A stretch of DNA of 57,448 nt from a virus: the IMG/VR virus record IMGVR_UViG_3300045440_000056, positions 1 to 57,448 of that record; one strand, written 5' to 3'. A program made the position numbers and the translations under genes. The notes beneath the pieces are model-generated. The model ran no database searches, was not told the DNA's origin, and was given only the letters and a program-made list of their open reading frames with translations. The number at the start of each line of letters is the position of its first letter. Within the stretch, counting starts at the first letter, position 1. Positions 1-54,055 of the stretch are shown here, piece after piece.

Positions 1-489
1 ACTTTTGTATATGCTGGTCCAGCTACCACTGCTGACTTTATTGTTGCAGATTCTTGTAACATTGTTGCTGATGCTGTTATTACTCAACGTTCTTCTTATG
101 CTTCAGGACAAGCTGCAGAATTTATCCAATTGGAGAAAAACTTCTATAGCTACCAAGCTGGTTACTTGAAACACCTTTACAGAATGAACGGTTACAATGA
201 GAACTTTGAGTCTTATGTTTCTGCTGGTAAAACTTACAATAGCTACTATATCAAATTCAATGAATATGATAAGTCTGCTTACCAATGGGGTGATTATATC
301 ATGGAAGATTCTACAGTAATCATTGCTATCCCTCAAGGTGGTTCTGATCTTACTCAAGACTTTGAGGATATTTTAGTGGCTGCTTTAGGAGATGTTACAG
401 ATAATGATCCTAATTGTGTAATCACAACTACTACTACATCAACTGCTGCTCCTAGTACAACAACAACATCTTCTACTAACATTCCTTAA
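1..489 (+). CDS. Structural protein C-terminus (5' truncated), probably major capsid protein, with Thr-rich tail
   Basis: The reading frame is open from base 1, so the gene begins upstream of the window; the first ATG inside (130) is not a true start. The 162 visible residues form a soluble alpha/beta segment (YLKHLYRMNGYNENFESYVS, then DYIMEDSTVIIAIPQGG) ending in a tail of roughly 20 residues that is nearly all Thr/Ser (TTTTTSTAAPSTTTTSS). I infer the major capsid protein from three things: the position just upstream of neck/tail genes, the immediately following strong terminator (typical after the most abundant virion protein), and general resemblance to crAss-like capsid C-termini. The visible part contains no diagnostic motif, so another head protein is possible. 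The Thr-rich tail matches linkers in the downstream fibre genes, including the string TTTTTSTAAP found at 2695-3693. Confidence 0.6.
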   Translation, partial: TFVYAGPATTADFIVADSCNIVADAVITQRSSYASGQAAEFIQLEKNFYSYQAGYLKHLYRMNGYNENFESYVSAGKTYNSYYIKFNEYDKSAYQWGDYIMEDSTVIIAIPQGGSDLTQDFEDILVAALGDVTDNDPNCVITTTTTSTAAPSTTTTSSTNIP

Positions 490-1244: not shown

Positions 1245-2366
1245 ATGTTAACACCTAGATTAACTAATTGTCCTGAATGTGCAAACATTCCTGATTTATT
1301 AAAAAAGATAGATTGTAAGTTAGCAGAATATGCTAATGGTCTATACAACAATGTTGTATTTATGTTGAATCAAGTTGTTCCTGCTGGAGCAATGATTCAA
1401 CTTTTGGCATATAAAAGAATCCTTACATACAAACAATGTAATCCTGATTACTTAGCTGATTTCTGTATGGATAAGATTGTAAGTAAGGTGATACGATTAA
1501 CATTAGGTTGTTATATTAAACCTACAGTTACAGAAACACTTATTCCAACAACAACCTCTACAACATCAACATCTACTACTTGTCCACCATTAATTTGTTC
1601 ATTTGATGGAACTGGTGTGTCAAGTTGTTCATTCACTGGAACTGTTCATAAAGTAACTATACCTCCAACAACAACATCTACAACATCAGCTACACCTACT
1701 ACATCAACAACAAGTTCTACTAGTACATCAACTAGTACTACATCAACTAGTTCAACAACAACATCAAGTAGTACAACAACTAGTACAACAACTATGTCAC
1801 CTACAATTACCATATGTAATCAAACTTGGACCACTAAAAATCTCGATGTATCTACTTACAGAAATGGAGTAGCTATACCTCAAATAACAGACCCAACACT
1901 TTGGGCAAATGCTACAAGTGGAGCTTGGTGTTATTTTGACAATGATCCCGCAAATAATGCAACTTATGGAAAACTTTATAATTGGTTTGCGGCACATGAT
2001 ACTGTTAATGGAGGAATTGCACCTGTAGGTTATCATGTCCCTTCTGATGCTGAATGGACAATATTAACTGATTGTTTATTAGGAGAACCAGTAGCAGGGA
2101 CAAAAATGAAATCAGCAACTGGTTGGACTAGTGGTAATGGCAATAACTCCAGTGGATTTACAGGTCTTCCTGCAGGACATCGTCAAGGAAGTGGTCAATT
2201 TCCAACTACCACTCTTGGCACCACAGGATTCTTTTGGAGCACTACAGAAGCAGCAGCCAATACTACAGCTGGTTGGGGTCGCGAGTTAAGTTACCAAAAC
2301 AATTATTGTTGGAGAAGTTATGATGACAAGAATTTTGGTTTTTCAATAAGATTAATAAAAGATTAA
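1245..2366 (+). CDS. Virion adhesin with Thr/Ser linkers and C-terminal FISUMP domain, 373 aa
   Basis: Residues 1-100 form a Cys-containing helical N-terminus (TNCPECANIPDLLKKIDCKL and following), probably the part that attaches to the particle. Two Thr/Ser-rich linkers follow (about residues 100-115 and 139-185) around a short CSFDGTGVSSCSF insert. Residues 186-373 are a FISUMP domain (Fibrobacter succinogenes major paralogous domain). It shows the usual order of motifs: QTWTTKNLDV, GAWCYFDND, YGKLYNWFA, GYHVPSDAEWTILTD, GFTGLPAGHR, GFFWSTTE and a terminal GFSIRLIKD. FISUMP domains are common on surface proteins of Bacteroidota and Fibrobacter and have a lectin-like look, so binding to a host glycan or surface protein is likely. 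A second FISUMP adhesin lies at 2695-3693. Confidence 0.8.
   Translation: MLTPRLTNCPECANIPDLLKKIDCKLAEYANGLYNNVVFMLNQVVPAGAMIQLLAYKRILTYKQCNPDYLADFCMDKIVSKVIRLTLGCYIKPTVTETLIPTTTSTTSTSTTCPPLICSFDGTGVSSCSFTGTVHKVTIPPTTTSTTSATPTTSTTSSTSTSTSTTSTSSTTTSSSTTTSTTTMSPTITICNQTWTTKNLDVSTYRNGVAIPQITDPTLWANATSGAWCYFDNDPANNATYGKLYNWFAAHDTVNGGIAPVGYHVPSDAEWTILTDCLLGEPVAGTKMKSATGWTSGNGNNSSGFTGLPAGHRQGSGQFPTTTLGTTGFFWSTTEAAANTTAGWGRELSYQNNYCWRSYDDKNFGFSIRLIKD
1660..1800 (+). repeat. Thr/Ser codon repeat encoding a mucin-like linker
   Basis: Low-complexity run of ACA/ACT/TCA/AGT codons with repeated ACTAGTAC and TCAACTAGT words, encoding almost only Thr and Ser. Similar tracts lie at about 421-480, 1542-1590, 2642-2678, 2917-3090, 3946-4091, 4677-4812, 21499-21638 and 21967-21996. 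They are protein-coding linkers, not a CRISPR array: units are irregular and there are no spacers. Confidence 0.85.
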
Positions 2367-2387: not shown

Positions 2388-2681
2388 ATGACAACATTAA
2401 TAACATTAACAAATGTAGGAAGTGACGCAGGTCCTTTTAATCTTTATTCAAATGCAGATGGATATGATCAACCATTTGATACAGACATAAGTGCTGATGA
2501 GCTAATAGCTGGATATACAACACCATTTGTTCCTAATGATGCAACTATAATAAGAGTGGTATCTATGGGAGTATGTGCTAATCGTATTGATATAGTAATT
2601 AATGATGATCCTTGTTTAATAGTAGGTACAGCTGCATTTGCTATTCCACCTACTACCACCACTACCACTACAACATTATAA
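2388..2681 (+). CDS. Stub protein: docking beta domain A plus poly-Thr tail, 97 aa
   Basis: Residues 1-85 are the first of four tandem copies of a small beta domain. Its hallmarks are an N-terminal strand TLITLTNVGS, then FNLYSN, a GYTTPFVPNDAT turn and an RVVSMGVC strand. It then ends in IPPTTTTTTTTL with no adhesive head. The sister genes at 2695, 3726 and 4458 have the same N-terminus followed by linkers and different C-terminal domains, so this is either a head-less decoration protein or a remnant that lost its head. It overlaps no neighbour and has the same A-rich leader as the others. Particle attachment is inferred from the shared domain, which also begins the tail gene at 22202. Confidence 0.7.
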   Translation: MTTLITLTNVGSDAGPFNLYSNADGYDQPFDTDISADELIAGYTTPFVPNDATIIRVVSMGVCANRIDIVINDDPCLIVGTAAFAIPPTTTTTTTTL

Positions 2682-2694
2682 AATAAAAATAATT

Positions 2695-3693
2695 ATGACA
2701 GTACTAGTCCAACTATCAGTAGCAGGTACAAATACTACACTTTTTAACATCTATTCTAATTTTGATAATGTTACCCCTATTGCAACAGGAGTAACAAAAT
2801 TAGAATTGTTAGAAGGATATTATGTATCCCCTGTTCCAAATGGTGCAACTACATTAAGAGTGATGGCTACAGGAACTTGTACCAGTTATACAGATATGCC
2901 TATAAGTGGTTTAATTACAACTACAACAACTAGTACTGCTGCTCCAGTTTCTACTACTAGTACTACATCTAGTACATCTACTAGCACTAGTACATCAACT
3001 AGTTCAACATCTAGTTCAACATCTAGTTCAACATCTACATCAACAAGTAGCACATCAACTAGTTCAACAACCACTACTACCACTACTAATCCTTGTCCTA
3101 ATTGTATTTCAGGAACAGAAATCCCAATAGGAACTCAAACATGGACTAAATGTAATTTAGATGTAACCACTTATAGAGATTTAACACCAATTCCACAAGC
3201 AACTAGTGATGCAGATTGGGCAAACAAAGGATCAAGTGGAATAGGAGCTTGGTGTTATTATGGAGAGAACACTGCAAATGGTCCTATTTATGGCAAGTTA
3301 TACAATTGGTATGCAGTTAATAATACTGTTAATGGAGGTTTAGCTCCTTTGGGTTATCGCATACCCACAGACTCCGAATGGACTGTTCTGACAGACTATT
3401 TAGGCGGAGAAAGTTTAGCTGGAGGAAAAATGAAAGAAGCAGGTTTTTGTCATTGGTTGAGCCCTAATACAGGTGCTACTAACTTAAGTGGCTTTACAGG
3501 TCTTCCTGGAGGAGATCGTGATACTGGTGGTACATTCTTTGGCATTGGATGCCATGGTTTCTGGTGGAGTAGGTCAGAGGATGAGGAAACAGGAGAAGTT
3601 TGGTATCGTTATCTAAGATGTGATCAGAGCATTGCTATCAGAGCTGCCCAAAATAAGGCAGTAGGTTACTCAGTTAGACTAATAAAAGATTAA
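2695..3693 (+). CDS. Virion adhesin: docking domain A, Ser/Thr linker, FISUMP domain, 332 aa
   Basis: I place the start at 2695 (MTVLVQLSVAG), not at the earlier in-frame ATG at 2638. That one lies inside the upstream gene, and the 2695 start aligns with sister genes and has the usual A/T-rich leader 13 bases after the preceding stop. Residues 1-74 are docking domain A. Residues 74-133 are an almost pure Ser/Thr linker. Residues 133-332 are a FISUMP domain with QTWTKCNLDV, GAWCYYGEN, YGKLYNWYA, GYRIPTDSEWTVLTD, GFTGLPGGDR, GFWWSRSED and GYSVRLIKD. It is therefore a paralogue of the head of the 1245-2366 protein set on a different base. It probably recognises a host surface component. Confidence 0.8.
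   Translation: MTVLVQLSVAGTNTTLFNIYSNFDNVTPIATGVTKLELLEGYYVSPVPNGATTLRVMATGTCTSYTDMPISGLITTTTTSTAAPVSTTSTTSSTSTSTSTSTSSTSSSTSSSTSTSTSSTSTSSTTTTTTTNPCPNCISGTEIPIGTQTWTKCNLDVTTYRDLTPIPQATSDADWANKGSSGIGAWCYYGENTANGPIYGKLYNWYAVNNTVNGGLAPLGYRIPTDSEWTVLTDYLGGESLAGGKMKEAGFCHWLSPNTGATNLSGFTGLPGGDRDTGGTFFGIGCHGFWWSRSEDEETGEVWYRYLRCDQSIAIRAAQNKAVGYSVRLIKD
3001..3036 (+). repeat. Three exact 12-bp tandem repeats in a linker
   Basis: AGTTCAACATCT occurs three times without interruption at 3001-3012, 3013-3024 and 3025-3036, encoding Ser-Ser-Thr-Ser units. Perfect nucleotide repeats inside the linker could change length by slippage in whole codons. Confidence 0.9.
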
Positions 3694-3722
3694 TAAAATA
3701 AAATAAAATAAAATAAAATAAA
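3694..3722 (+). repeat. TAAAA pentamer tandem repeat in a translation leader
   Basis: Five complete TAAAA units plus TAAA fill almost the whole 32-base gap between the stop at 3693 and the ATG at 3726. It is an extreme form of the A/T-rich, Shine-Dalgarno-less leaders seen before most genes here, which fits translation initiation in Bacteroidota. The repeat could change in length and tune expression of the downstream adhesin. Confidence 0.85.
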
Positions 3723-3725
3723 CTA

Positions 3726-4433
3726 ATGACAGTACTAATCCAATTATCAGCAGTAGGAATAAACATAACACTTTTTGATATATATTCTAATATAGATTAT
3801 GGTACTCCTATTGTAACAGGGATATCAAAAATGCAATTATTAGAAGGATATTCTTTATTGAATGTTCCAGATAATGCAACTACAATAAGATTATCATCTA
3901 CAGGAACTTGTAGTAATTATACAGATATAGCTATAGGTGGTTTAATTACAACTACTACTACTACTAGTACTACATTGAATTGTTCATTTATTGTAAATGC
4001 TCAAGAAATAACTACAACAAGTACATCTACTAGTTCAACAAGTACATCTACTAGTTCAACAAGTACAACAACTACTACCACTACATCAGCACCACTTCCT
4101 GAAGGAACTATTGTTCTAAGAAATGATATTAATATAGGATCTGGACAAACATTAAATTCTTTGTCTAATTTTTCTTGGACAACTCTTGCACCATCTGCTT
4201 TCCCTATACCACAAAATACTAATAGATTTGGAGGTCATTTTGGGTATTCAGGTAATCTTACTATAAATGCAACAGTAAATTCAAGTTGTCGTGTTGAAAT
4301 TACTGTAGGTGGTAATACTTTTTGTCAAGGGGTGCAAGGAACAGGATCGATAAATTATGTATTTACTGGAATTACAATCTTACCAACAGATGATGTTACT
4401 ATTGAATTAACTACAGGTGATGTTTGTCCATAA
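3726..4433 (+). CDS. Virion adhesin: docking domain A, Ser/Thr linkers, novel beta head, 235 aa
   Basis: Residues 1-73 are docking domain A (MTVLIQLSAVG, FDIYSN, LLEGYSLLNVPDNATTIRLS), closest to the gene at 2695. Residues 74-121 alternate Thr/Ser tracts with a short NCSFIVNAQE insert. Residues 122-235 are a different head. It appears all-beta, begins GTIVLRNDINIGSGQTLNSL, has two Cys in SCRVEITVGGNTFC and ends LTTGDVCP. I do not recognise this head; it looks like a small beta-sandwich of the receptor-binding type. The arrangement makes it a cassette-swapped sister of its neighbours: same base, other head. Confidence 0.7.
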   Translation: MTVLIQLSAVGINITLFDIYSNIDYGTPIVTGISKMQLLEGYSLLNVPDNATTIRLSSTGTCSNYTDIAIGGLITTTTTTSTTLNCSFIVNAQEITTTSTSTSSTSTSTSSTSTTTTTTTSAPLPEGTIVLRNDINIGSGQTLNSLSNFSWTTLAPSAFPIPQNTNRFGGHFGYSGNLTINATVNSSCRVEITVGGNTFCQGVQGTGSINYVFTGITILPTDDVTIELTTGDVCP

Positions 4434-4457
4434 ATAATAAACTAAAAATAAATAATA

Positions 4458-5063
4458 ATGACAGTATTAATAACATTATCAGGAGTAGGCAGTAGCGCAG
4501 GACCAACATTTAATTTATATGCAAGTCCTGATGGAATAACTTTTACAACAATTGTATTAGGTGTAAATAAAACTGCACTAGAAGCAGGATATACAGCAAC
4601 TGTTCCAAATGGTACAACAGATATTAAAGTAACTTCTGTAGGTGCATGTACTAACTCCTATATTGCAACAATTGGTGTAATACCAACTACCACTACTACT
4701 ACCACAATTGGTGTAATACCAACTACCACTACTACTACCACAATTGGTGTAATACCAACTACCACTACTACTACCACAGCAACACCAACTACTACCAGCA
4801 CAACTACTTTACAAGTATTTACTCAGGGATTAGATCAAAGTAGTGCATATTGTGTTGGTGGTTTTTGCGAACTTGATGGAACTATAACTGGCATCACTGT
4901 CTATAGTCTAGATGAGACATTAGTTACAGGAAGTTTTATATATACAGATCCAGCATTAACTATTCCATATACAACAACCCTTGTAAGTGATGGTCAATAT
5001 ATATTTAATGTTAGTGGTTTTGGTGAATTAACTATAACTTGTACTGTAGGTATTGAATGTTAA
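4458..5063 (+). CDS. Virion adhesin: docking domain A, repeated IGVIP-Thr linker, small beta head, 201 aa
   Basis: Residues 1-72 are docking domain A (MTVLITLSGVGSSAG, FNLYASPDG, TATVPNGTTDIKVTS). The linker (about 73-118) is built from three identical 12-residue units IGVIPTTTTTTT and one further Thr-rich stretch. The C-terminal head (119-201) is about 80 residues, predicted beta, with Cys in AYCVGGFCELDG and near the C-terminus (ITCTVGIEC), so disulfides are possible. It is the fourth tandem member of the domain-A family and carries a head unrelated to the FISUMP type. Function as a surface-binding decoration is inferred from architecture. Confidence 0.7.
   Translation: MTVLITLSGVGSSAGPTFNLYASPDGITFTTIVLGVNKTALEAGYTATVPNGTTDIKVTSVGACTNSYIATIGVIPTTTTTTTIGVIPTTTTTTTIGVIPTTTTTTTATPTTTSTTTLQVFTQGLDQSSAYCVGGFCELDGTITGITVYSLDETLVTGSFIYTDPALTIPYTTTLVSDGQYIFNVSGFGELTITCTVGIEC
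4668..4775 (+). repeat. Three exact 36-bp tandem repeats encoding IGVIPTTTTTTT
   Basis: Units at 4668-4703, 4704-4739 and 4740-4775 are identical at nucleotide level, which shows a recent in-frame expansion of the linker. Confidence 0.9.
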
Positions 5064-5857: not shown

Positions 5858-8641
5858 ATGAACTACCCACCTACTCCACAAAGAAAAACTTGCGACTGTA
5901 GTGATCCTTGTATCTCTACAGATGATGTTTACTATGCTGGTCCCAATCTTCCAAACTCAGGAATCAATACTTATAATGTATTAACATCAGTTATAGAAAA
6001 GCTAGATGCTATCTATGCTGTTCCTACGTTACAGAGAGTAACGGAAATGGGTAATTACACCACTCTACCAATAATTGCAGATTCATTTGTAAAAATTGGT
6101 GGTACTTCATCTGAAATATTAGCAGCTAATGGTGATTTAATAACTGCTGGAACAAACATAACAATATCAGGAGGAATAATATCTTCAACAGGTGGAGGTG
6201 GAGATTCACCTATAACTATTGTAAATACTAACAGTCTTTTTTCAACAGGATTAACTGGTACTGGAACTGGAGCAACAGGCGCTTACGATTCTATTTTCTT
6301 TGGTACGGACGCTGGTGAAAATGCAACAGAAGCTTTTGAATCAAATTTCTTAGGTCCATTTGCTGGTAGTTTAGCAACAAATGCTTATAATTCAAATTTC
6401 TTTGGTTATTCTGCTGGCGAAGGCGCAGCAAACGCTTATCGTTCAAACTTCTTTGGTAGTGGCGCTGGTTTACTTGCAGTCAATGCTAGTTATTCAAATT
6501 TCTTTGGTACTAATGCTGGTTATCAAGTAACAGGAACAGAGGGCGAAGAATTTAGGTCAAATTTCTTTGGTTTTGATGCTGGTAATGGCGCAACCAATGC
6601 TAATGATTCAAACTTCTTTGGTAATAGTGCTGGTTATCTAGCAACTTATGCAAATACTTCAAACTTTTTTGGTAATCAAGCTGGTAGAGAAGCAACTAAT
6701 GCTGAAAACTCTAATTTTTTCGGGTATAAAACTGGCTCTTCTTTTACTGATAATAATATAGGTTCAAATAATATTATTATAGGTACAAATATTTCATTAC
6801 CAGATGCAACAGCAAATGCTATTAATTTAGGTGGTGTATTATTTAGCACAGGCACTCATTCAGATACAACAGGAGACCCATCAATTACCCCTATATCAGG
6901 AGGTAAAATAGGTATAGGAATAGTAAATCCAACAAATACATTACACATATATTCTGAAGCAGCGAATACTTCAGGTTTAAGACTTGAAAGGTTAACAAGT
7001 ACATCACCTACAAGTACTGGACAAGCGATTGGCGTTGATGCAAGTGGTAATGTTGTTACAGTTACTGGCAGTGGTGGTACACAAACATTAGCAGAAACTC
7101 TTGTATTAGGTAATAATACAGGAGGTACAGATATATTATTAAATAATGAAGACAGACTACTATTAGAAAATAATTCTTATTTAACAAAGGGGACTTATGA
7201 TTTTGGAGCTAATGGTGGTATTTCAAAAGTGTGTGGAGCGGGTTATGAAGATATGTGGCAAGCTGGTTTTAGACACGTTTTCGATGCTAACGGATTTATA
7301 AGAAATTCAACTAATTGTTTTAATCTTGTACCTGATATTGGTGCTGATGTTACACGAAGATATAAGATAGGTAGTATTTGGACTTTAGATGATTTAACTA
7401 ATTATATTTGCACAGATGCGACAGAGGGTGCTGCTGTATGGGAATTATACAAAGAGATACCTACAATACAACCTGTATCTGCAACAGAAACTGGTGTAGT
7501 AAATAATACTTCCTTACAAGAACTTGGAGGAGTTGATAAAACAATTAATGGTGTAAGAGTTGGTAGAGGGAATATTTCTGACCCTGCTTCTGAAAATACC
7601 GCAGTAGGTTATCAGGCTTTACAATCAGTTATTCATACTACAGGAGATGAAGGATATTATAACACTGCATTTGGTGATGAAGCATTAAAATCATTAACTA
7701 CTGGTAATTCAAGTAGTGCATTTGGAGATTGGGCATTAAGACTTTGTACAACAGGAACTTATAACTCAGCAATTGGAGGTGGAACATTAATGAATCTAAC
7801 TACTGGCTCATACAATCTAGCAGTAGGTGAGAATAGCCTTCTTTCTAATGTATCTGGACAAAGGAATACTGCAGTGGGTTCTTTTGCATTAAATTTAAAT
7901 ACAGGTTCTTATAATACTGCAATTGGTATGTTAGCAGGAGGATTATCAACTTCTTCAGGTAATTGGAATATACTTGTAGGAATGCAAGCTGGTAGAGATA
8001 TAAGCACAGGGAGCAACAATTTATTAATTGAAAACATAACTAATGCATCTATAACTTCAGGTAGTTTTAATATTGTATTAAATCCTAAACAAAAATCTGG
8101 TGTAACTACAGGATCTTTTAATACTATTATAGGATGCTGGGATGGGGCATTTCCAAATGCAATGGTAAATAATGTTATAATAGGAGATGGCCAAGGTAAC
8201 ATTAGATTTCGAACAACAGAGACAGGACTTACAACAGTTCCTGGTCAAACAAATGCATTGATTGAAGCAGACACCACTGGTAAGGCTGTAGTCACTAAGG
8301 AATATATTTCAGGAGTTGTAAAACCATACAAAGTGTATACAGCTTTATTAACAAGATCTGGAGCTACCGCACCAAGTCCAACTGTTTTAGAAAATACAAT
8401 AGGTACAATTACTTGTAGTTATGATCAGCTTGGTATATATCATATAAACTCATCAGGGTTATTTACCTTAAATAAGACAATGGTTTTTGTTGGAAACAAT
8501 TCTTTTGGACTTTTTGGTAATACTTTAGGTGCATCAAGAATGGATAATAATAGAGTAGTTATTGTTCAAACTACAACTTCAGGTACAAATGACGAAGATT
8601 GGATCGAACCAGTTTCTATAGAAATAAGAGTATATAATTAA
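5858..8641 (+). CDS. Long trimeric-type fibre with two beta-repeat heads, 927 aa
   Basis: Residues 1-60 hold a Cys cluster (CDCSDPC) and docking motif B (YYAGPNLPNSGINTYNVLTS). About residues 141-295 are nine imperfect units of about 17 residues, each centred on SNFFG followed by AG and an AxNA turn. About residues 581-745 are a second, different repeat array of TAVGYQAL / NTAIGMLAGG type. That array resembles the beta-roll repeats of YadA-like trimeric adhesin heads and phage fibres. Residues about 805-927 form a C-terminal beta knob. The architecture (dock, shaft of repeats, knob) is that of a tail or head fibre. The segments between the arrays contain further beta fibre modules (LRLERLTSTSPTSTGQAIGV). 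It is followed by a gap containing a promoter-like element. Confidence 0.8.
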   Translation: MNYPPTPQRKTCDCSDPCISTDDVYYAGPNLPNSGINTYNVLTSVIEKLDAIYAVPTLQRVTEMGNYTTLPIIADSFVKIGGTSSEILAANGDLITAGTNITISGGIISSTGGGGDSPITIVNTNSLFSTGLTGTGTGATGAYDSIFFGTDAGENATEAFESNFLGPFAGSLATNAYNSNFFGYSAGEGAANAYRSNFFGSGAGLLAVNASYSNFFGTNAGYQVTGTEGEEFRSNFFGFDAGNGATNANDSNFFGNSAGYLATYANTSNFFGNQAGREATNAENSNFFGYKTGSSFTDNNIGSNNIIIGTNISLPDATANAINLGGVLFSTGTHSDTTGDPSITPISGGKIGIGIVNPTNTLHIYSEAANTSGLRLERLTSTSPTSTGQAIGVDASGNVVTVTGSGGTQTLAETLVLGNNTGGTDILLNNEDRLLLENNSYLTKGTYDFGANGGISKVCGAGYEDMWQAGFRHVFDANGFIRNSTNCFNLVPDIGADVTRRYKIGSIWTLDDLTNYICTDATEGAAVWELYKEIPTIQPVSATETGVVNNTSLQELGGVDKTINGVRVGRGNISDPASENTAVGYQALQSVIHTTGDEGYYNTAFGDEALKSLTTGNSSSAFGDWALRLCTTGTYNSAIGGGTLMNLTTGSYNLAVGENSLLSNVSGQRNTAVGSFALNLNTGSYNTAIGMLAGGLSTSSGNWNILVGMQAGRDISTGSNNLLIENITNASITSGSFNIVLNPKQKSGVTTGSFNTIIGCWDGAFPNAMVNNVIIGDGQGNIRFRTTETGLTTVPGQTNALIEADTTGKAVVTKEYISGVVKPYKVYTALLTRSGATAPSPTVLENTIGTITCSYDQLGIYHINSSGLFTLNKTMVFVGNNSFGLFGNTLGASRMDNNRVVIVQTTTSGTNDEDWIEPVSIEIRVYN
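6280..6740 (+). repeat. SNFFG-type tandem beta repeats within the 927-aa fibre
   Basis: Nine coding units of about 51 bp encode (S/N)xFFG...AG...A.NA. The nucleotide sequence TCAAATTTCTTTGG or close variants recurs in most units. Confidence 0.85.
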
Positions 8642-12800: not shown

Positions 12801-13381
12801 GTGGTAATAACAATAATGGAACCCTTATAAATGGACCAACTTTTGATTCTGCAAATGGAGGAAGTATTGTATTTAATGGAGTGAGTCAATATGTAAATTG
12901 TGGTAATGCTTCTAATTTAAAATTTACAAATAACTTCACAATTAATGTATGGGTAAAATTTAATTCATTATTGGGTCCTCAAGCAATAATTTCCAATAAT
13001 GAAAATGGAGGTTATGGAATACTTGCTAATTCGGCTAGTAGTAGATTAGAAACTTTCTACTGGATAAACGGAAGTTATAGAAAGGCTGGAGAGGATATGG
13101 TAAATTACAATACATCTTCATGGTTTAATATATCGGTAACTTTTAATGGAAGTAATGTTTTATTTTACAGAAATGGAAATTTAATACAAAGTGTTTCTGC
13201 AATAGGAACTGTTTCTACAAATAATCTACCGTTACTAATAGGGGCAAACCCAAACATATCTGGAAATTATGAGGATTTTTTTAATGGTAAAATTTCTCAA
13301 GTACAAACATATAATAAAGTGTTAACACCAACAGAATTGCTAGCAAACTTTAACGCAACAAAAGGAAGATATGGATTATAA
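9869..13381 (+). CDS. Giant BspA/DUF285-repeat adhesin with PKD-like and LamG-like domains, 1170 aa
   Basis: Residues 1-155 are a beta N-terminus with no docking motif of families A-C. Residues 159-197 contain IDWGDNSYTN and HTYAIPGQYTVRI, a PKD-like signature. Residues about 225-910 hold more than 20 repeats of the DUF285/BspA-like type (FNQ, then W(N/D), then VT, then a short gap and MF, every 25-40 residues). These repeats occur in Bacteroidota, Treponema and mycoplasma surface proteins. Residues about 956-1170 look like a concanavalin-A/LamG fold: TWTDLSGNNNNGTLINGP, GGSIVFNG, FTINVWVKF, VLFYRNG and IGANPNISG. It is the last gene before a strong terminator. The likely role is a host-surface-binding decoration. 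No transmembrane segment or signal peptide is visible, in keeping with a virion protein made in the cytoplasm. Confidence 0.8.
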   Translation: MNNLAFQIYGTKKATPFQSVWKTDNIALGADTANKTASTLPSDWALAPGGTNLLTGGYTHNGSGSSVLLFPISSAAFQNYQIICTLSAGSTGSVVISLGNVSSASLSDSSTTIILTPTAGSGTLSITPVNFVGTVSLSVKASSSAANQIQLPITSIPVGKSIWIDWGDNSYTNANNSNYTANIIHTYAIPGQYTVRILGDNFSFGFGSTNSVNDRLKIKSISSWGKLKMGSSSFNGCSNVTMSGITDVPDLIGVTNLSNAFNTCSNLTTVGRMNEWNMSSVTNLLGMFSNSGNFNQCIGGWNVSNVTTFEGMFYNCLEFNNGDNSTPINNWILNTTSSVSLNYPFINCRKFNRYIGDWNTSKVNMMADMFQGATVFNNGFAAGVGTGNQLNWDTSSCTNMSRMFVGAPAFNSNVSSFNVSKVTTFNQMFTYCNAFNNGFASGVANQLPWNISSATNMTSMFQNCTAFNSNLGTGTTQWDVSKVTTFASMFSGATAFNNGSDTAPINNWAIGGNITGTISMSGMFVNASNFNMPISNWNMTKVTNTSSMFANTNVFNQSLFNWERAGSTMGNVTDMSSMFTSASVFNQNIGAWNVSNVTTFASMFNGATAFNNNGSSDINNWAINTVSNVTMGNMFVNASNFNMPISNWNMTKVNNTAGMFNGTTLFNQPLANWERAGSTTGNITAMQSMFQGASAFNQDISSWNVNKVTNFGYMFRSALAFTNGDNNQENPITFRVGINGWNINTTATSVNMAGMFFGTRDFNRNINSWNVSKVTSMSEMFNSTTTFNQSLNSWNTVSVVEMVGMFELATAFNEPIDNWNMSNVTATRYMFNGATIFNQPLSNWERNTVGNVSTMAKVTSMNNMFSNAIAFNKNIGNWNVSNVANFSSFMIGKTSANFLSTNLDAIYNGWIVNGVKPNISISFGTAKYSQAGKTGKDALLASPNNWTITDGGNENVLVLDAGNPLSYPGTGTTWTDLSGNNNNGTLINGPTFDSANGGSIVFNGVSQYVNCGNASNLKFTNNFTINVWVKFNSLLGPQAIISNNENGGYGILANSASSRLETFYWINGSYRKAGEDMVNYNTSSWFNISVTFNGSNVLFYRNGNLIQSVSAIGTVSTNNLPLLIGANPNISGNYEDFFNGKISQVQTYNKVLTPTELLANFNATKGRYGL
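11434..11490 (+). repeat. 57-bp exact direct repeat, copy 1
   Basis: Bases 11434-11490 are identical to 11767-11823, 333 bp downstream. The duplicated unit of about 111 residues spans several DUF285 repeats and continues with weaker similarity into a WERAGST segment. Confidence 0.85.
11767..11823 (+). repeat. 57-bp exact direct repeat, copy 2
   Basis: Identical to 11434-11490; marks a segmental in-frame duplication inside the BspA-like repeat region. Confidence 0.85.
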
Positions 13382-16972: not shown

Positions 16973-19900
16973 ATGGCTGAAGAACAATCACAAGGAAATA
17001 TAAAACAAGAACTTAACAGTGCTAACATAGGGTTAAACCTAGATAACACAGTAAATCAAATTAAACAGGGCACGCTCACGTATGCCCTGAATGCTGCTTT
17101 AGAAAACTTTGACTCTTCTTCTGTTAACTATCAGAATGAACAAGGTAATGAACTGTGTGTACAATTCCCTCAAGAATATGTATTAATAGGAACACACTTC
17201 ATTAATGAACAAAGTAAACATATATTCTTCATCACCAATCCTAATACAGGAGATAGTGAAATAGGATATATGGATAACAATGATTGTATCTATCACACAC
17301 TAGTTAATGCATTATGTCTTAACTTCAATACAGATAATCCTATTCATAAAACTGTACATAAGATTACTAATTGTACAACAGAAATATATTGGACAGATGG
17401 ATTCAATCCTAGAAGATATTTAGACATTAATAATATTCCTTATTTACTAGCTCCTAATTCAGATCTTTGTGATCCTGTATATACAGATCAATTAGATTGT
17501 AATCAATTAAAGCTACAACCTAATTTTAATATTCCAAATCTTTCTATTGCAGATGTTACCACAGGAGGTTCTCTTCTTGCTGGTACATATCAATTTGCAG
17601 TGCAGTATTCTGATGCTGTAGGTAATCCTTTTACTTCTTATTATTCTATTACTAATCCCACACCAATTGCTGATCCACAGATTGCAACAGTTAATTTTAA
17701 CTATGTTGTAGGAAAGTCTATTGTTGTTGATGTAAGTAACTTAGATGCTACAGGACAGTTTCAATATTTTAATCTAGCTGTTATTAAAACAGTTAATGCA
17801 ATTACATCTGTAGAATTAATTGGAACATATTTTATAGATAATACATCTTTAAATATAACTTACACAGGACAGATAGTTGATAACATTCGTTTATCAATGA
17901 ATGATATATTTGAGAAGTTTCCATATTATGATGTAGCAGAAGATTTAACAGCTGTACAGGATGTTCTTGTATGGGATGGACTTGGATCTATAGATAGAAT
18001 TAATTATCAATCTATAGCTACACAAATAGATCTGCTATGGGAAACATATCAGATTCCTCCAAATGAAAATTATGCAGATGAATTAAATGCTACAAATCTT
18101 AGAGGATATCTTAGAGATGAAGTGTATGCATTTGAAATTGTATTCTTATTAAAGAATGGAAAACAAACAGATGGATTTCATATTCCAGGAAGAACATCTG
18201 TTCCTAATGATTTAGTAGTAATAAACAAAGTTGATAATGATGATTATATTGGAACAGGAACTTCTGCTCCGTATTGGAAGATATATAATACAGCTTCTGT
18301 AATTGGAACTTCTCCACAATGTTCAACTTGTAATATTGGAACTTCCACTCCATATCAATATGGAAACTTCGCTTATTGGGAATCAACAGAAGAATATCCA
18401 TGTAACATAGATCTTTGGGGAGATTTAGCTGGTCAAAAAATTAGACATCATAAGTTTCCAGATGTATTAGTATCTCCTATTACAAAACCAGTTATAGATT
18501 ATAATCCTTCAAAAATTCTAGCTGTACAAAATAATTATGTATATCCAATAGGAGTTAAAATAGATACAGCACAAGTTCAATCTTTAATACAATCATCAAC
18601 ATTAACAACAAATCAAAAAGCTGATATAGTAGGATATAAAATAGTAAGAGGAGATAGAGGAACAAACAAATCTATTGTAGCAAAAGGTATTCTTCGTAAC
18701 GTAGGAGAATACACAAGAGAAGAACAATCTTTTTATTTTCCTAACTATCCATATAATGATCTTGCTGCAGATCCATTTTTAAATGCAACAAATAACGCTT
18801 GGACTGATGAATGTAAAACTTATCAAATTAACATACTTAAATTTAATGAATTTCCTGTTGGAGAAGCTCCATATACAGCTATACAATATACAAGTTGTAA
18901 TAGCAATAAAGTAACTACTAAGAAATTTGAAACATTAGGGATACATCAACAGTGTTCTATTGGTATTCCTACTTTTTTAGGAAATGGCCCTTTTAATGTA
19001 ATGAATGAATCTGATACTGGACCAACTCCTAGTTCAACTAATGTAGCAGTTGCCACATACATGACTTATTCAATATGGACCCTGGAATCAGAATGTGATG
19101 GAGCTTTTGAAGCATGTAGAGGATGGAGAGCACAATTTACAGATTGGACAGGAAATACACAGGCAAGCGTATGGATACAAGGAAGTGGAGATTGGAATCC
19201 TGGTTATAGAAAATATACTGTTTATAGTATAGGGGGAGAACCTTATAAGACTGATGGACGAGGAGAAACAAAAATAAGATATGTAAGTTCGGTATCATTT
19301 AATAACTGTGATGTATCAATTCCACAACCACCGTTAAAAGAAAGTAATACTTATAGACAAATATTTAATTCACCAGAAACATCTTTTGGACAACCATTCT
19401 TAGGAGACATTCTTAAATTAGAGAATGTGATGTATGGTAAAGGATATGCACATTTTGTACCAGTTAATAGTAATGCTAAATATAGACTTCTTTCTAAAGA
19501 AGCACAAAAAGATGCATTAGACGCCTCTAGTGCTTTAGGTAATAGAACTGATCCGTTCAATGCTACTTCTATGTTTACAGCATATCAGGCATATCTACAA
19601 ATATATATAAATGGTATAACTAGAAGAAACTATGCATATTCATTTAACTCAACTGCTAGTTATGATTATAATGAAAAAATTACTAACAGTGGATATAAGC
19701 AAAGAACGTTAGACATTAAAAGATATTTAATTCCAGGAGTACAGAATGTTGGAGATAATTATAATATAAATAATTTTCAAAGAGAATCTTCTGTTTATTT
19801 AAAAACAGATGAGTATAGAGAAGATGGCACCACTCCAGTTGCATCATTACCATTTCCTAGTAATAGTACAGAAATGACTACTAATATAGGGATAGTAGAG

Positions 19901-22192
19901 AAATCTAGATTAACAATAGGAGGTAGTGGTGCTTGTGCTAGTCCTGCAGGAGAACAAGATATAAAAGTTGTTTCTTACTACGCATCATTAAAAAATACAT
20001 TTGTAAATCAATGGGGACAAATGTATTCTTATGATACAATTGATACAGGGTTCCAAAAAAACGTAACAGCTAATACTACTGCTACAATATTTGGAGGAGA
20101 TACATTTATATCTAGGTTTGCATTTAAAACAAAACTTCCATATTTTATAGATAATAGAGTTAATGCTCCTGATGATAGTGATGTATTTTATGATGAGATT
20201 GGTAATATAGCCTATCCAAAATATTGGCACTCAGCTAGATCTATATTATCTGATTATAGTGCAAATAATTCAGGACTGTTATCTAATATAGTTTCATATA
20301 AAGCTCATTCATTTGACTGTCCAAGTTTTCCAGAAAACTATCCTCCACCAAATGCTGGATCACAAAGAACATTCTATGATGGATATTTCTATTTGTTTGC
20401 ATATGGTATTCCTAATTTCTATTGTGAGAGTTCATATAATACAGATTTAAGACAAGCATTCAATAATAAAGAAGGAGACTTCTGGCCACACGTATCAACA
20501 GGTATTCCTGATGATTGGGTACAAGAGAATTTTGTATCGATAGCAAATGATAATACATATACATATAATGTAACATTCTCTAAACAGAATAAAGAGAATA
20601 CATTTACGCATTTACCAGCAGATTATAATGGGAACCCATGTTATACATACTATCCATTTAGAGCTGTATACTCAGATGCACAGAACATTGATGCTGATAA
20701 TAGAGTAAATAGCTGGTTAACATATAGAGCTATTTCTTATTATGACTTTCCTCAGAACTATGGTAAACTTATATCATTAGATGGTATTCAAAACAAAGCT
20801 GTATTAGCTAGGTTTGAGAATAAGACATTAATGTATAACAATCTCCTTACAATTGATACAAGTAATCCACAAGCTGCATATGTAGGTAATCCTAATATGT
20901 TCAAAGGAGCACCTCCTATTGACTTTGCAGAAACAGATCTTGGATACGTAGGTAGTCAAAACAAAATGTTATTGAAGATTCCTCAAGGACAAATAACAGT
21001 TGATGCTAAGAGAGGACAAGTGTTTCTTATACAAGGAACACAAGTAGAAGATCTATCTGCATTTGGTTCTGGAATGAATAGATTCTTTACAGACCATTTA
21101 GCTTTTGAAATCTTAAGATACTTTCCAAAGGTAGATACAGATAACAATTTTAATGGTATAGGATTACATGGTGTATATGATAGTAAGTTTGATAGAGTGA
21201 TACTTACTAAAATAGATTATATTCCATTAAGCAAAGATATCAAATATGATCCTGTAACAAAAGATTTCTATATAGAAGAATTAATAGGTACTAATATCTA
21301 CGATAGAACAGTTGTTAGTTTAAAAGATTCAGAATATTTTTGTAATAAGTCTTGGACTCTTTCATTTAATGTAAATACTAAAAGCTGGGTATCCTTTCAT
21401 AGTTATATTCCTAATTGGTATATAGCAGAAAACAATTTCTTCTATTCTGGTATAAATGGATGTTGTGATGAGTTTGATTTTATTGCAGGATCTATTGTTC
21501 CTACACCAAGCACAACAACAACAACTACTATGTTTGTACCAACTACTACAACAACAAGTAGTTCTACATCAACTAGTACATCTACTACATCAACATCAAC
21601 AACAGCTGCTCCAACGACTACAACTACAACAAGTTATGTATGTCAAAGACCTATAAATATGCAAACACTTGGCCTTATAACAGGATATAATATAGTTAGT
21701 CCTCCTTCAACAGTTGTATCTACAGGAAGTCAAGTAAATGCATGTACTGCAATGGATTATATTTATGATGCACCTGCAGGCACAATAGTTCCTACTAGTA
21801 TTATAGCACAGGCTGATAGTATTGTAGTTGATCAAACTGTTTATAGTGGTACAGGTACAGATTGTACAGTGGTACCTAATGGCTGGTATTTTACAGATGA
21901 GACAGCTGGTATGGATATTGTATTTAATATAGATAATGGTATAGTAAGTCAATTAGTTAATTGTAATCCTACTACCAGCACAACAACTACAATATCAACT
22001 TGTTACTCATTTACTGCAACTAAAACATCAGTTGGTGTTGTAACAGTAACTTTCATTGATTGTTCAGGAAATCCAGGAAGTAGAACTGTTGGACTTGCAG
22101 GAGGAGGATTCTCAACACAAACATTCTGTGCACTTGCTGGTACTGTAACTACACCTGCTGGAGTAACATTAACTAATAATGGAAACTGTTAA
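16973..22192 (+). CDS. Tail muzzle/stabilisation-type protein with C-terminal mucin-like adhesin extension, 1739 aa
   Basis: The N-terminus (LNLDNTVNQIKQGTLTYALN, residues about 21-40) is characteristic, as I recall, of the large crAss-like tail-tip 'muzzle' proteins. The body runs to about residue 1505 and is a long mixed beta protein. Recognisable late segments are SWTLSFNVNTKSWVSFHSYI and PNWYIAENNFFYSGINGCC. Then comes an abrupt Thr/Ser linker (about 1508-1555) and a Cys-containing beta domain (about 1558-1660, CQRPINMQTLGLITG). A short second linker (TTSTTTTIST) and a last 60-residue beta module (CYSFTATKTSVGVVTVTF) end the protein. The adhesin-like extension resembles heads of the fibre island. 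The muzzle's expected continuation appears in the next gene. Probable role: distal tail barrel that opens on ejection, here also bearing a receptor-binding tip. Confidence 0.75.
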   Translation: MAEEQSQGNIKQELNSANIGLNLDNTVNQIKQGTLTYALNAALENFDSSSVNYQNEQGNELCVQFPQEYVLIGTHFINEQSKHIFFITNPNTGDSEIGYMDNNDCIYHTLVNALCLNFNTDNPIHKTVHKITNCTTEIYWTDGFNPRRYLDINNIPYLLAPNSDLCDPVYTDQLDCNQLKLQPNFNIPNLSIADVTTGGSLLAGTYQFAVQYSDAVGNPFTSYYSITNPTPIADPQIATVNFNYVVGKSIVVDVSNLDATGQFQYFNLAVIKTVNAITSVELIGTYFIDNTSLNITYTGQIVDNIRLSMNDIFEKFPYYDVAEDLTAVQDVLVWDGLGSIDRINYQSIATQIDLLWETYQIPPNENYADELNATNLRGYLRDEVYAFEIVFLLKNGKQTDGFHIPGRTSVPNDLVVINKVDNDDYIGTGTSAPYWKIYNTASVIGTSPQCSTCNIGTSTPYQYGNFAYWESTEEYPCNIDLWGDLAGQKIRHHKFPDVLVSPITKPVIDYNPSKILAVQNNYVYPIGVKIDTAQVQSLIQSSTLTTNQKADIVGYKIVRGDRGTNKSIVAKGILRNVGEYTREEQSFYFPNYPYNDLAADPFLNATNNAWTDECKTYQINILKFNEFPVGEAPYTAIQYTSCNSNKVTTKKFETLGIHQQCSIGIPTFLGNGPFNVMNESDTGPTPSSTNVAVATYMTYSIWTLESECDGAFEACRGWRAQFTDWTGNTQASVWIQGSGDWNPGYRKYTVYSIGGEPYKTDGRGETKIRYVSSVSFNNCDVSIPQPPLKESNTYRQIFNSPETSFGQPFLGDILKLENVMYGKGYAHFVPVNSNAKYRLLSKEAQKDALDASSALGNRTDPFNATSMFTAYQAYLQIYINGITRRNYAYSFNSTASYDYNEKITNSGYKQRTLDIKRYLIPGVQNVGDNYNINNFQRESSVYLKTDEYREDGTTPVASLPFPSNSTEMTTNIGIVEKSRLTIGGSGACASPAGEQDIKVVSYYASLKNTFVNQWGQMYSYDTIDTGFQKNVTANTTATIFGGDTFISRFAFKTKLPYFIDNRVNAPDDSDVFYDEIGNIAYPKYWHSARSILSDYSANNSGLLSNIVSYKAHSFDCPSFPENYPPPNAGSQRTFYDGYFYLFAYGIPNFYCESSYNTDLRQAFNNKEGDFWPHVSTGIPDDWVQENFVSIANDNTYTYNVTFSKQNKENTFTHLPADYNGNPCYTYYPFRAVYSDAQNIDADNRVNSWLTYRAISYYDFPQNYGKLISLDGIQNKAVLARFENKTLMYNNLLTIDTSNPQAAYVGNPNMFKGAPPIDFAETDLGYVGSQNKMLLKIPQGQITVDAKRGQVFLIQGTQVEDLSAFGSGMNRFFTDHLAFEILRYFPKVDTDNNFNGIGLHGVYDSKFDRVILTKIDYIPLSKDIKYDPVTKDFYIEELIGTNIYDRTVVSLKDSEYFCNKSWTLSFNVNTKSWVSFHSYIPNWYIAENNFFYSGINGCCDEFDFIAGSIVPTPSTTTTTTMFVPTTTTTSSSTSTSTSTTSTSTTAAPTTTTTTSYVCQRPINMQTLGLITGYNIVSPPSTVVSTGSQVNACTAMDYIYDAPAGTIVPTSIIAQADSIVVDQTVYSGTGTDCTVVPNGWYFTDETAGMDIVFNIDNGIVSQLVNCNPTTSTTTTISTCYSFTATKTSVGVVTVTFIDCSGNPGSRTVGLAGGGFSTQTFCALAGTVTTPAGVTLTNNGNC

Positions 22193-22201
22193 TAAATTAA
22201 T

Positions 22202-23068
22202 ATGTCAAAAATAATAACAATAAGGTTAACTCAAGTGTCACCATCTTCTGGACCATTCACAATCTTAGATCAGTTCGAGAATGTGATAGCAGAAGATGTG
22301 CCTAAAAAGATTCTTGTTAGTGGAGTGAACTATACTGTGAATGATGATGTAATATTAGTTACACTAAGATCTACTGGTAAATGTAATATAGAAAAGACAT
22401 TATATCTAAGTGATATTACAGAAGAGGACTATGTTAATATTAAACTAACACAAATTATTACAGGATGTACATGGAGACACTTAACTAATATACAATTATA
22501 CAATTCTTATTATGGTGTTACAGAACCATACATAATTGAATATCCATTTGCTTATAAGTTTCAAGATGAAATCTTACAGAATGTAAAAGACTATACAAAA
22601 GCATATGAATATGTGTCTATACCAGATGGTGTATTTAATGATAACACAAGAATAGAAACAAACAACAAGTGGTTTAACAAAGCTATTTTATATAATGGAC
22701 AACAAAGTTCAGGAGTGTTAACTCTCGTTGCTAAACCTCTTAATGATATGCGTGCATACATGCAGTATCCAATATTCAATACAGATAGTAAAACAATCAC
22801 GTACACTAAGAGTGATAACTTCTATCAATACAATACATTCTGGGCTCTTCAAAAAAGTTCTCAAGTTCCATTGTTTAATACAGGATGTGAAAGCTTATCT
22901 ATTGATAAGGTGATTAACCAAAGCAATATGGATTATGGATCAAGAAGTTTCAAGAAAGCTACACTAAGAGCTAAGGAGCTTAAGATACGTCATATATTAG
23001 ATGACAATTGTACAACGCATTTAGTGAGTCAATTCTTAATTGCTCCTGCACAAATCTCTTATAAGTAA
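22202..23068 (+). CDS. Domain-A protein carrying a muzzle C-terminus-like region, 288 aa
   Basis: Residues 1-80 repeat docking domain A of the fibre island: IITIRLTQVSPSSGPFTILD, then NYTVNDDVILVTLRSTGKC. Residues 85-288 start with GCTWRHLTNIQLYNSYYGV and contain IIEYPFAYKFQDEIL, WFNKAILYNGQQSSGVLTLV, FYQYNTFWALQK, and a C-terminal RAKELKIRHILDDN ... LVSQFLIAPAQISYK. To my recollection this second part corresponds to the C-terminal portion of muzzle proteins in other crAss-like phages, here separated from the 1739-aa gene by 9 bases and given its own N-terminal domain. It probably completes the tail tip and offers an attachment site for adhesins. The stop overlaps the next start (TAATG). Confidence 0.65.
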   Translation: MSKIITIRLTQVSPSSGPFTILDQFENVIAEDVPKKILVSGVNYTVNDDVILVTLRSTGKCNIEKTLYLSDITEEDYVNIKLTQIITGCTWRHLTNIQLYNSYYGVTEPYIIEYPFAYKFQDEILQNVKDYTKAYEYVSIPDGVFNDNTRIETNNKWFNKAILYNGQQSSGVLTLVAKPLNDMRAYMQYPIFNTDSKTITYTKSDNFYQYNTFWALQKSSQVPLFNTGCESLSIDKVINQSNMDYGSRSFKKATLRAKELKIRHILDDNCTTHLVSQFLIAPAQISYK

Positions 23069-51727: not shown

Positions 51728-54055
51728 ATGAATCAATTTTGTGAAGCTATTCCATGTCCTGTTATACTAAATGCTACCTGTGTATTCTACGAAGGAGCTA
51801 GTTTAGTATGTTCAGGAATCAATACTAATGATACCCTTGAGACTGTCATAGTTAAGTTAAATCAAAAACTATGTAATGTTAGTGGTACATCTGGTACAAG
51901 CGGTACTAGTGGGACCAGTGGTACAACTGGTACCTCAGGATCTAGTGGATCTTCAAGCACTAGTGGTTCAAGTGGAACATCTGCAACTAGTGGTACCACA
52001 GGTACTAGCGGTACATCAGGTACAAGTGGATCAAATGGTGATAGATATAAAACATCTTCTACAACAGATTTCACATTAGGATATGCAGGAACGCTCACTG
52101 TTGGTACTGGATTAGCATATACAACAGGACAATCTATTATAATAGTTCATGATATTAATAACTATCAAGAATGTGTTACTATTTCTTATAATACACTCAC
52201 TGGTATATTAGTATTTGGTACACCAAATTTAACTGTAGGTGGAGGAGCATTCACATCATGGATTGTAAATCTTGATGGTGCTACAGGTGGTGATGGTTCT
52301 TCAGGAACATCAGGAAGTAGTGGAACAGCTGGTACATCTGGAACCACAGGTACAAATGGTACAAGTGGAACTACAGGAACATCAGGTAGTACAGGTTCTA
52401 ATGGTACATCTGGAACAAGAGGCTCAAACGGAACAAGTGGCACAACAGGTACTTCTGGTTCTTCTGGTACTACTGGCACTAGTGGAAGTAACGGAAGTAA
52501 TGGTACATCAGGTACCACAGGAACAAGTGGTTCTAATGGATCTAATGGTACGTCAGGAATAAATGGTGTGAGTGGTACATCTGGATCTAATGGAAGCAGT
52601 GGAACATCAGGATATGATGGAATAAATGGAACTAGTGGCACAACAGGTACGAGTGGAACAAGCGGAACAAGTGGAGATACTGGTAGTAGTGGAACCTCTG
52701 GTACTACAGGTACTTCTGGTACAACAGGTTCAAATGGAACTTCTGGTACATCAGGGACTACAGGAACTAGTGGTACTAATGGTACAAGTGGTATTGCATC
52801 AGGACAAATATATTATTTTAATGAATCTGTAACACAGACACCATTAACATATAAACAGATTGCCCCATTACCAACTGCAGCTTTAACACAAACAGTAACA
52901 AGAACAACAACAGGATTAACACCTGTATTAGTAGATACATTTATTACAGATGCAAGTGGATTGGGCGTGAATGTTATTCCTCCTGGAACACAAAGATTTC
53001 ATTTACATTTCTTAAAAGGAGCTTCTGGATTTAATACAGATACATTCTGTACAATAGAATTAGCTGATAGTGCAGGAACAAGTTATGGTACAGTGATACC
53101 AACTAATCAAGTGTTAATTCCTTGGATTAGTTCTATTCTTCCTGTTGAGGTATATGTAGATTTAGTAATACCAACATCATTTTTTATTCTTCCTACAGAT
53201 AGAATGATTGTTAAAATATATGTTGTAGATCAATCATCAGGTAATCATCCTGTAACTTGGTATACAGAAGGAGAACAATATTATTCTTATGTTATAACAT
53301 CTCTTGGTGCTACATATGGTACATCAGGTACTTCTGGTACTAGTGGATCTTCAGGTACAACTGGTGCAACTGGAAGCTCTGGAACAAGTGGAAGTAATGG
53401 ATCTTCAGGTACTAGTGGTAATACAGGATTACCTGGAACAAATGGAACTAGTGGAACCAGTGCAACAGCAACAGTTCCCAATCTTCAACAAGTTACTAAT
53501 GTTGGTTCAAGTACTACAAGTGGTATAACTGCTGCATCATTTATTAAATCAGGAGCTACATCATCTCAATTCCTATTAGGAAATGGCACAGTTAATACAC
53601 AGATAAATTTAAGTGGTATTAATTTAGGAAGAGTAACTGGTACAACAGCAAATACAATAGCTGCATCTTATTTATGGCCTACTGACATAATATCTGCAGC
53701 TAAAACTTTTACTATTAATTTAGGTGTGTTTAAAGTAAATTTAACTGGTACTTGTCAAGTTAGGGTGTATGCTAATTCATCTGTTAGTCTTACTGGAGCA
53801 ACTTTACTTTCAACAACATCAATGACAATTGCACAATCAAATGCTAACATCATAAGAAATATTGTGAATTATGATGGATCTGGATTTTATATATTTTATT
53901 TACCTACAACATCAGCTTTCCATGATTATTTAGCATTTACTGTCAGTACACAGGTGTATGATCTTTCATCTAATATATATATTATTGTTGCATTTCAAAA
54001 TAGTACAACTACAGAAGATGCATTTTTAAAGTATATTAAAATATCAGCTATATAA
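51728..54055 (+). CDS. Gly-Thr-Ser collagen-like fibre with docking motif B, 775 aa
   Basis: Residues 1-50 are Cys-containing with docking motif B (FYEGASLVCSGINTNDTLET, then VIVKLNQKLC), as in the genes at 5109 and 5858. Three blocks of Gly-X-Y triplets follow, in which X and Y are nearly always Thr, Ser or Asn (about 52-100, 187-355, 531-578). These would form a collagen-like triple-helical shaft with extreme Ser/Thr density. Between blocks 1 and 2 is a beta module (RYKTSSTTDFTLGYAGTLTV to WIVNLDG) common next to such shafts in phage fibres. Residues 356-530 and 580-775 are beta domains, the last probably the tip. It overlaps the next start by one base. It is an obvious candidate substrate for O-glycosylation. 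Confidence 0.8.
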   Translation: MNQFCEAIPCPVILNATCVFYEGASLVCSGINTNDTLETVIVKLNQKLCNVSGTSGTSGTSGTSGTTGTSGSSGSSSTSGSSGTSATSGTTGTSGTSGTSGSNGDRYKTSSTTDFTLGYAGTLTVGTGLAYTTGQSIIIVHDINNYQECVTISYNTLTGILVFGTPNLTVGGGAFTSWIVNLDGATGGDGSSGTSGSSGTAGTSGTTGTNGTSGTTGTSGSTGSNGTSGTRGSNGTSGTTGTSGSSGTTGTSGSNGSNGTSGTTGTSGSNGSNGTSGINGVSGTSGSNGSSGTSGYDGINGTSGTTGTSGTSGTSGDTGSSGTSGTTGTSGTTGSNGTSGTSGTTGTSGTNGTSGIASGQIYYFNESVTQTPLTYKQIAPLPTAALTQTVTRTTTGLTPVLVDTFITDASGLGVNVIPPGTQRFHLHFLKGASGFNTDTFCTIELADSAGTSYGTVIPTNQVLIPWISSILPVEVYVDLVIPTSFFILPTDRMIVKIYVVDQSSGNHPVTWYTEGEQYYSYVITSLGATYGTSGTSGTSGSSGTTGATGSSGTSGSNGSSGTSGNTGLPGTNGTSGTSATATVPNLQQVTNVGSSTTSGITAASFIKSGATSSQFLLGNGTVNTQINLSGINLGRVTGTTANTIAASYLWPTDIISAAKTFTINLGVFKVNLTGTCQVRVYANSSVSLTGATLLSTTSMTIAQSNANIIRNIVNYDGSGFYIFYLPTTSAFHDYLAFTVSTQVYDLSSNIYIIVAFQNSTTTEDAFLKYIKISAI
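52287..52790 (+). repeat. Longest Gly-Thr/Ser-Thr/Ser triplet repeat tract
   Basis: Degenerate 9-bp units (GGT/GGA + ACx/AGT/TCx + TCx/AGT/AAT) encode over 50 G-X-Y triplets. Codon choice is varied, so the tract is held by selection on the protein and is not a recent DNA expansion. Confidence 0.85.

Follow-up and report, generated by a model that had tools for sequence, protein, structure and literature searches.

A shared N-terminal domain with exchangeable heads in crAss-like phages also begins one piece of a divided muzzle

Modular phage receptor-binding proteins have a conserved N-terminal anchor and exchanged C-terminal parts. For crAss-like phages the choice and change of host are still largely open. 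The phage crAss001 has two types of fibre with N-terminal capsid anchors, and the Ig domains of its muzzle have been likened to a synaptotagmin domain (PMC10172136). In zeta crAss-like phages C-type-lectin heads are diversified by a diversity-generating retroelement (PMC12386605). Here we analyse a 57,448-base stretch of viral DNA (33% GC, referred to as the window) in which a fixed socket, a Thr/Ser linker and an exchangeable head would provide a concrete rule for such changes.

Gene order and gene families identify the window as a fragment of the virion module of a crAss-like phage. The order runs from an exonuclease through two ring-type genes flanking an IHF-like gene to the muzzle and then to very large cargo-type proteins; the muzzle, the ordered ring and IHF-like genes and the giant cargo proteins together place it in a Crassvirales-type virion module. 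The muzzle matches Pfam family PF25731 (crAss_MUZ) with 120 bits against a cut-off of 27, and the ring and IHF-like genes match crAss001 gp40, gp42 and gp43 and their Fpv3 equivalents. Named phages with a related muzzle are Leptolyngbya phage Lbo-JY46, Cellulophaga phi17:2 and the Flavobacterium Fpv phages. Going by the Flavobacterium and Cellulophaga phages among these, the hosts of the present group are probably Bacteroidota. At the DNA level no matching phage record was found for the first 12 kb of the window. The incomplete gene at its start (1-489) was considered as the C-terminus of the major capsid protein, which was ruled out: it matches Fpv3 gp17 and not gp13, crAss001 gp32 or crAss001 gp36. 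At its C-terminus this protein has a Thr/Ser tail like those of the proteins described below, and no head is seen on it among the clustered loci. Table 1 lists the features under study.

Table 1. Positions of socket, linker, head and muzzle features in the window.
Feature	Position	Strand	Basis
C-terminus of a virion-module protein of ~390 aa (Fpv3 gp17-like), headless Thr/Ser tail	1..489	+	hhalign to Fpv3 gp17, probability 96
Second socket type (about 99 aa), linkers, FISUMP head	1245..2366	+	PF09603, E 2e-35
Headless A gene, 97 aa: A and 11-residue Thr/Ser tail	2388..2681	+	Orthologues L003_1809, L001_6639
A, 61-residue Thr/Ser linker, FISUMP head; 332 aa	2695..3693	+	PF09603, E 1.7e-34
A, linker, predicted beta-sandwich head with CBM-like fold matches; 235 aa	3726..4433	+	AlphaFold2 model, fold matches
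A, tripled IPTTTTTTT linker, small beta head; 201 aa	4458..5063	+	Sequence segments
Muzzle N-terminal piece, residues 1-1499, ends at the cut loop FFYSGINGCCDEF	16973..21469	+	PF25731, 120 bits; BLASTP to Fpv3 12-1767
Display tail of the muzzle N-piece: Thr/Ser linkers, two small heads (clusters 2 and 5)	21470..22192	+	Cluster 5 also on A, B and 1245-type sockets
Muzzle C-terminal piece: A (residues 1 to about 75), muzzle part from residue 91	22202..23068	+	BLASTP; phrog_15100 C-terminus
B-type socket: short N-terminal motif, SGTSGT linkers, several beta domains	51728..54055	+	Cluster 3 socket

An earlier note on this DNA had described four tandem adhesin genes, starting at 2388, 2695, 3726 and 4458, that share one N-terminal domain and differ in their heads. 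All four open reading frames are present, and an alignment of their N-termini bears out the common domain (here called A): it spans ~74 residues with 17 invariant columns, and pairwise scores lie 11 to 26 SD above those of shuffled sequence. The heads that follow this common socket also differ as described, being absent in 2388, FISUMP in 2695, CBM-like beta in 3726 and small beta in 4458. Of the range given for the group (2388-4750) the starts are correct but the end is not, as 4750 falls inside the fourth gene, 313 bases before its end at 5063.

The product of 2388 ends in PPTTTTTTTTL, and 13 bases separate it from the next gene; of its two close orthologues L003_1809 is headless and L001_6639 carries a head. 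Both FISUMP heads (1245 and 2695) give full-length matches to the PF09603 profile, with 120 and 123 bits against a cut-off of 33.9. The head of 3726 is modelled as a moderately confident beta domain whose best fold matches are of the CBM36/CBM6/CBM35 type (Z about 5), and it has no relative among the fetched locus segments. For the 4458 head only weak relatives were seen among the clustered segments, and a search of viral contigs confirmed none. The closest pair is formed by 2695 and 3726: their sockets are 78% identical in DNA against about 50% for the heads (shuffled heads give about 43%), and because of this difference the two are probably tandem copies, the heads of which have since diverged or been replaced. 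A similar natural series occurs in a related locus, L196, where three A genes stand in tandem (6001, 6260 and 6516), two of them headless.

Domain A is widespread. A profile built from the four copies detects 495 IMG/VR stretches that encode A. Within the window it recovers one further copy, more distant than the other four, at 22202 (E 2.6e-15 after iteration). From the 80 best loci and the window 123 copies were read. A Phe, a Leu, a Gly and a lone Cys are invariant across the related loci; the Cys is kept in 68 of the 69 copies listed, and the exception probably has a mis-called start. The domain nearly always stands at the start of the protein and is mostly followed by a Thr/Ser-rich linker and a head; some proteins stop after the linker, and among the 91 distinct A proteins read from the loci 18 have no head. 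Matches to Pfam are lacking for all 25 members searched at E 0.01. Likewise, a sequence search of solved structures (PDB), a tblastn search of cultured phages and a search of bacterial genomes with one query yielded no relative of A. AlphaFold2 predicts a single beta-sandwich for the A domain of 3726 (pLDDT 91-97 over residues 1-70) and the same beta-sandwich for that of the 22202 protein (pLDDT 77-92). Fold matches are generic and many are tied (Z 6.0 for the C-terminal domain of RemZ from type 9 secretion, 5.5 and lower for FnIII domains), and another fold comparison gave a C2 domain as the best match with Z 7.3. The models suggest a compact beta-sandwich, possibly Ig/FnIII-like, with generic matches at a best Z of 6-7. 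The possibility that A is an internal Ig domain of the muzzle was rejected, as hhalign shows no relation to the crAss001, Fpv3 or window-type muzzles. In the BFVD three proteins of Virus NIOZ-UU157 carry A (A0A7S9SU37, A0A7S9XFL2 and A0A7S9XH99), all listed as uncharacterized: the set comprises an orthologue of 22202 (59% identity), a stand-alone A-like domain of 77 aa (TM 0.81) and a larger A-like protein. No description of the domain was found.

A is not the only socket. Counted as unique proteins, A is found in 91, the muzzle N-piece in 77, the B-type in 65, the Fpv3-gp17-like protein in 52 (linker tail only), the 1245-type in 29, the second muzzle piece in 23 and the 5109-type in 10. In many relatives the 1245-type is headless, with a length of 89-108 aa. 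The B-type carries an N-terminal motif around YxGxxLxCxxI..DxLxxVLxKL and has its own range of heads; it is also seen at L004:4786 and L004:6343. The window products of 5109 and 5858 start with a motif similar to that of the B-type, and the 5858 protein contains repeated NSNFFGxxAG-like units (6240-6780). Near the virion module an open reading frame on the minus strand (54568-56655) resembles, judged by eye from its sequence, a two-part glycosyltransferase; sugar-coating of the Thr/Ser linkers is an idea that this raises.

All linker-bearing proteins of the loci were cut at their linkers and the pieces clustered by blastp. This yielded 137 clusters of heads, of which 80 have a single member. 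The heads include FISUMP, DUF285 (L188), BspA-type leucine-rich repeats (L001) and CBM-like sandwiches. The DUF285 head sits on an A socket (L188:1978-3531), and eight DUF285 stretches together with a Laminin_G_3 domain are also present in the window protein at 9869-13381. Head families recur on at least five socket types. FISUMP heads, for example, occur nine times on muzzle N-pieces, seven times on the 1245-type, twice on the B-type and once on A; cluster 5 heads are found on the muzzle (23), on B (11) and on A (8).

The earlier note had further claimed that the tips are interchangeable. Comparing the head repertoires of relatives agrees with this, and contradicts a one-to-one orthology of heads without swapping. 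L001 and L003, the closest relatives of the window, have orthologous sockets with different heads, and a clade of four proteins (2695 and 3726 of the window, L001_7546 and L003_2140) bears four different heads. When pairs of A sockets with an identity of 95% or more are compared, the head is shared in 15 pairs, different in 6 and partly the same in 1; one member is headless in 4 pairs and both members are in 2. Two loci (L044 and L070) have identical sockets of 72 residues and different heads. For another pair, L054 and L059, DNA identity is 98-100% over the socket, drops to 37-47% over the head and returns to 100% just past the stop codon; this profile places the ends of the exchange in the linker and near the stop. 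In a tree of 99 sockets, which is based on few columns and leaves many forks unresolved, counting starred branches only, the headless state must have changed at least 6 times, head 14 at least 5 times and head 5 at least 3 times. It might be argued that the repeats in the linkers cause chimeric assemblies of metagenome contigs; several heads nonetheless recur in independent contigs. Overall, the comparisons support separate histories of sockets and heads, that is, one socket with interchangeable tips. The heads presumably bind host surface molecules or receptors.

The fifth copy of A, which the earlier note had missed, belongs to gene 22202, where A is fused to the C-terminal part of the muzzle. 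By BLASTP residues 91-288 of its product match the very end of single-chain muzzles (1769-1961 in Fpv3, 1464-1654 in Lbo-JY46). Residue 1499 of the upstream protein and residue 91 of the downstream protein have neighbouring equivalents in these muzzles (1767 and 1769 in Fpv3, 1455 and 1464 in Lbo-JY46), and therefore the muzzle chain is cut at one loop, near residue 1238 of the crAss001 muzzle in the alignment. In four reference phages the muzzle is one chain; in the window homology runs across both pieces and a single polypeptide of about 1400-2300 aa is not found. The downstream piece starts with A in all 80 loci fetched with the 22202 protein, and the upstream piece bears a linker and a head at the cut in 75 of 76 readable loci. 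Between the two genes there are mostly 0-17 bases, and sometimes they overlap. In 27 loci the chain is cut a second time, near residue 1437, with a linker there in 26 and a head in 15 (FISUMP-like in L142 and L146). The muzzle is thus encoded in two genes and in some phages in three. Long insertions are present at the same loop in the muzzles of Fpv3 and phi17:2, which shows that it tolerates additions; L028 and L064 have an in-frame Thr/Ser insert alone at that loop, possibly an intermediate.

The ends at the cut carry characteristic cysteines. The motif FYSGxNGCC closes the muzzle part of all 80 real upstream pieces (four apparent exceptions to the CC motif proved to be unrelated minus-strand frames), and [AGS]C[LIVT]WRHL is present on all matched downstream pieces. 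Neither motif has its cysteines in the aligned region of the four single-chain muzzles. A natural reading of these motifs is that a cysteine staple would span the cut. The muzzle part of the 22202 protein is not modelled confidently by AlphaFold2 when taken alone, which fits a broken-off piece that would need its partner; searching solved structures by sequence with the muzzle-C alignment gave no match. Among 25 large records the fusion of A to the muzzle C-part is found in 24, each with one to five further A genes. This co-occurrence is not solely a selection effect of searching with A, because 14 of the 25 records (G010-G023) were fetched via the muzzle gene and not via an adhesin.

Given these results, we estimate at roughly 60% the probability that A is the fixed virion end of exchangeable adhesins and docks at the muzzle, the tail tip working as a multi-head sensor of glycans or receptors. 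The flexible Thr/Ser linker would keep the head away from the particle. Recombination with ends in the repeats that encode the linker and near the stop codon would exchange the head and leave the socket in place. The muzzle chain is cut at loops; the upstream piece bears its own linker and heads and the downstream piece starts with A. It is because A begins the downstream piece, and the upstream piece bears heads at the cut, that the A proteins would dock there. Sequence comparison establishes that the domain is shared, that heads are swapped and reused over sockets, that the muzzle is cut with A downstream, and that the cut bears cysteines; docking of A on the virion, docking at the muzzle and exposure of the loops are what we infer. 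Against the muzzle as the dock, A has no sequence relation to the rest of the muzzle. Moreover, a distance of about 10 kb or more separates the A genes from the muzzle C-gene in the window and in most relatives, and their neighbours are other genes of the fibre-like kind, so that other docks are conceivable as well. A more elaborate version is tentative and in our view somewhat doubtful. Here a multi-gene, self-assembling muzzle, shared by a widespread group of crAss-like phages, would be opened at one or two surface loops, with exchangeable heads at each open end and newly gained cysteine pairs joining the pieces, and A would be a shared plug for further A-linker-head proteins. If true, this would be a virus tail whose gating machine itself mounts a changeable set of sensors.

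The position of the A genes, between the Fpv3-gp17-like gene and the exonuclease and ring-protein genes and beside fibre-like genes, might also indicate that A docks elsewhere: on the capsid, like a head fibre in a hexon pocket (compare crAss001 gp21 and gp29, the capsid-anchored fibre types mentioned above), or on the hub of a tail fibre; the muzzle C-part would then have reused a handy folded cap independently. We regard this as unlikely, though it is the alternative to be taken most seriously. A has no sequence relation to gp21 or gp29, the fusion to the muzzle is universal in the sampled group (80 of 80), and in four loci (L028, L064, L066 and L155) A genes stand between the two muzzle genes.

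Carbohydrate binding is often ascribed to the Ig-like domains of phages. A itself could then do the binding, as an Ig-like decoration domain with affinity for glycans, and the linkers and heads would be accessories; this would account for the headless copies (the 18 of 91). However, A is conserved and the heads vary, the opposite of what is expected for a module that determines specificity; moreover, A is always N-terminal and ahead of the linker, and it is also fused to a structural protein. This makes the explanation quite improbable. Less probable still is a role of A as a folding or assembly cap during synthesis without lasting docking, for instance in maintaining the solubility of the muzzle C-piece before its assembly with the N-piece. 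That the C-piece is predicted to be unfolded alone whereas A folds, and that A starts every such gene, would fit; dozens of adhesins whose heads are self-contained nevertheless retain A, and almost all copies keep the lone Cys. Diversification of FISUMP (C-type-lectin-like) heads by a retroelement, as described for the zeta crAss-like phages, can practically be dismissed, since the heads belong to unrelated families and are not point variants, and no reverse transcriptase (RVT_1) was found in 21 records with a search whose control was positive (a result that is weaker for the window's own record, which is a fragment).

If A is indeed a fixed socket, it can serve as a marker domain: being present in hundreds of contigs, it would make likely host-recognition parts readable from metagenomes. 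The scope is also wider than in the earlier note, as the same heads occur on 1245-type and B-type sockets and on muzzle pieces, and the same socket caps the C-part of the muzzle. With a muzzle in pieces that displays heads where it is cut and has A opening the piece that follows, a physical link between surface sensing and the tail gate becomes testable.

In comparison with the crAss001 virion (PMC10172136; PDB 7QOK, 7QOL, 8CKB), the window shares the muzzle family (PF25731; gp44 in crAss001) and the order of ring and IHF-like genes. The fibres of crAss001 also combine a short N-terminal anchor with a separate binding domain, and its tail is disulfide-stabilised. Its gp44 muzzle, however, is one chain without A, linkers or heads, and A has neither a significant profile match to crAss001 open reading frames nor an hhalign relation to the head-fibre anchors gp21 and gp29. 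The heads of 1245 and 2695 match the full profile of FISUMP (Fib_succ_major, PF09603), but here FISUMP belongs to a large set of exchangeable heads carried by phage sockets, among them a muzzle piece, and no diversity-generating retroelement was found. The retroelement-diversified tail fibres of zeta crAss-like phages and the tentaclins (PMC12386605, PMC10743442) resemble the present proteins in having C-type-lectin and Ig-like surface domains and a variable specificity end; they differ in that here whole unrelated heads are exchanged on one socket, without a reverse transcriptase in the records searched. Modular receptor-binding proteins have in common with the A proteins a fixed anchor and an exchangeable tip, whereas here the anchor is an undescribed one, the linkers are flexible and rich in Thr/Ser, heads are distributed over at least five anchors, and the anchor is also part of a tail-tip protein made in pieces. 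Modularity on a fixed anchor is thus known in general; the surprising part is the muzzle in pieces.
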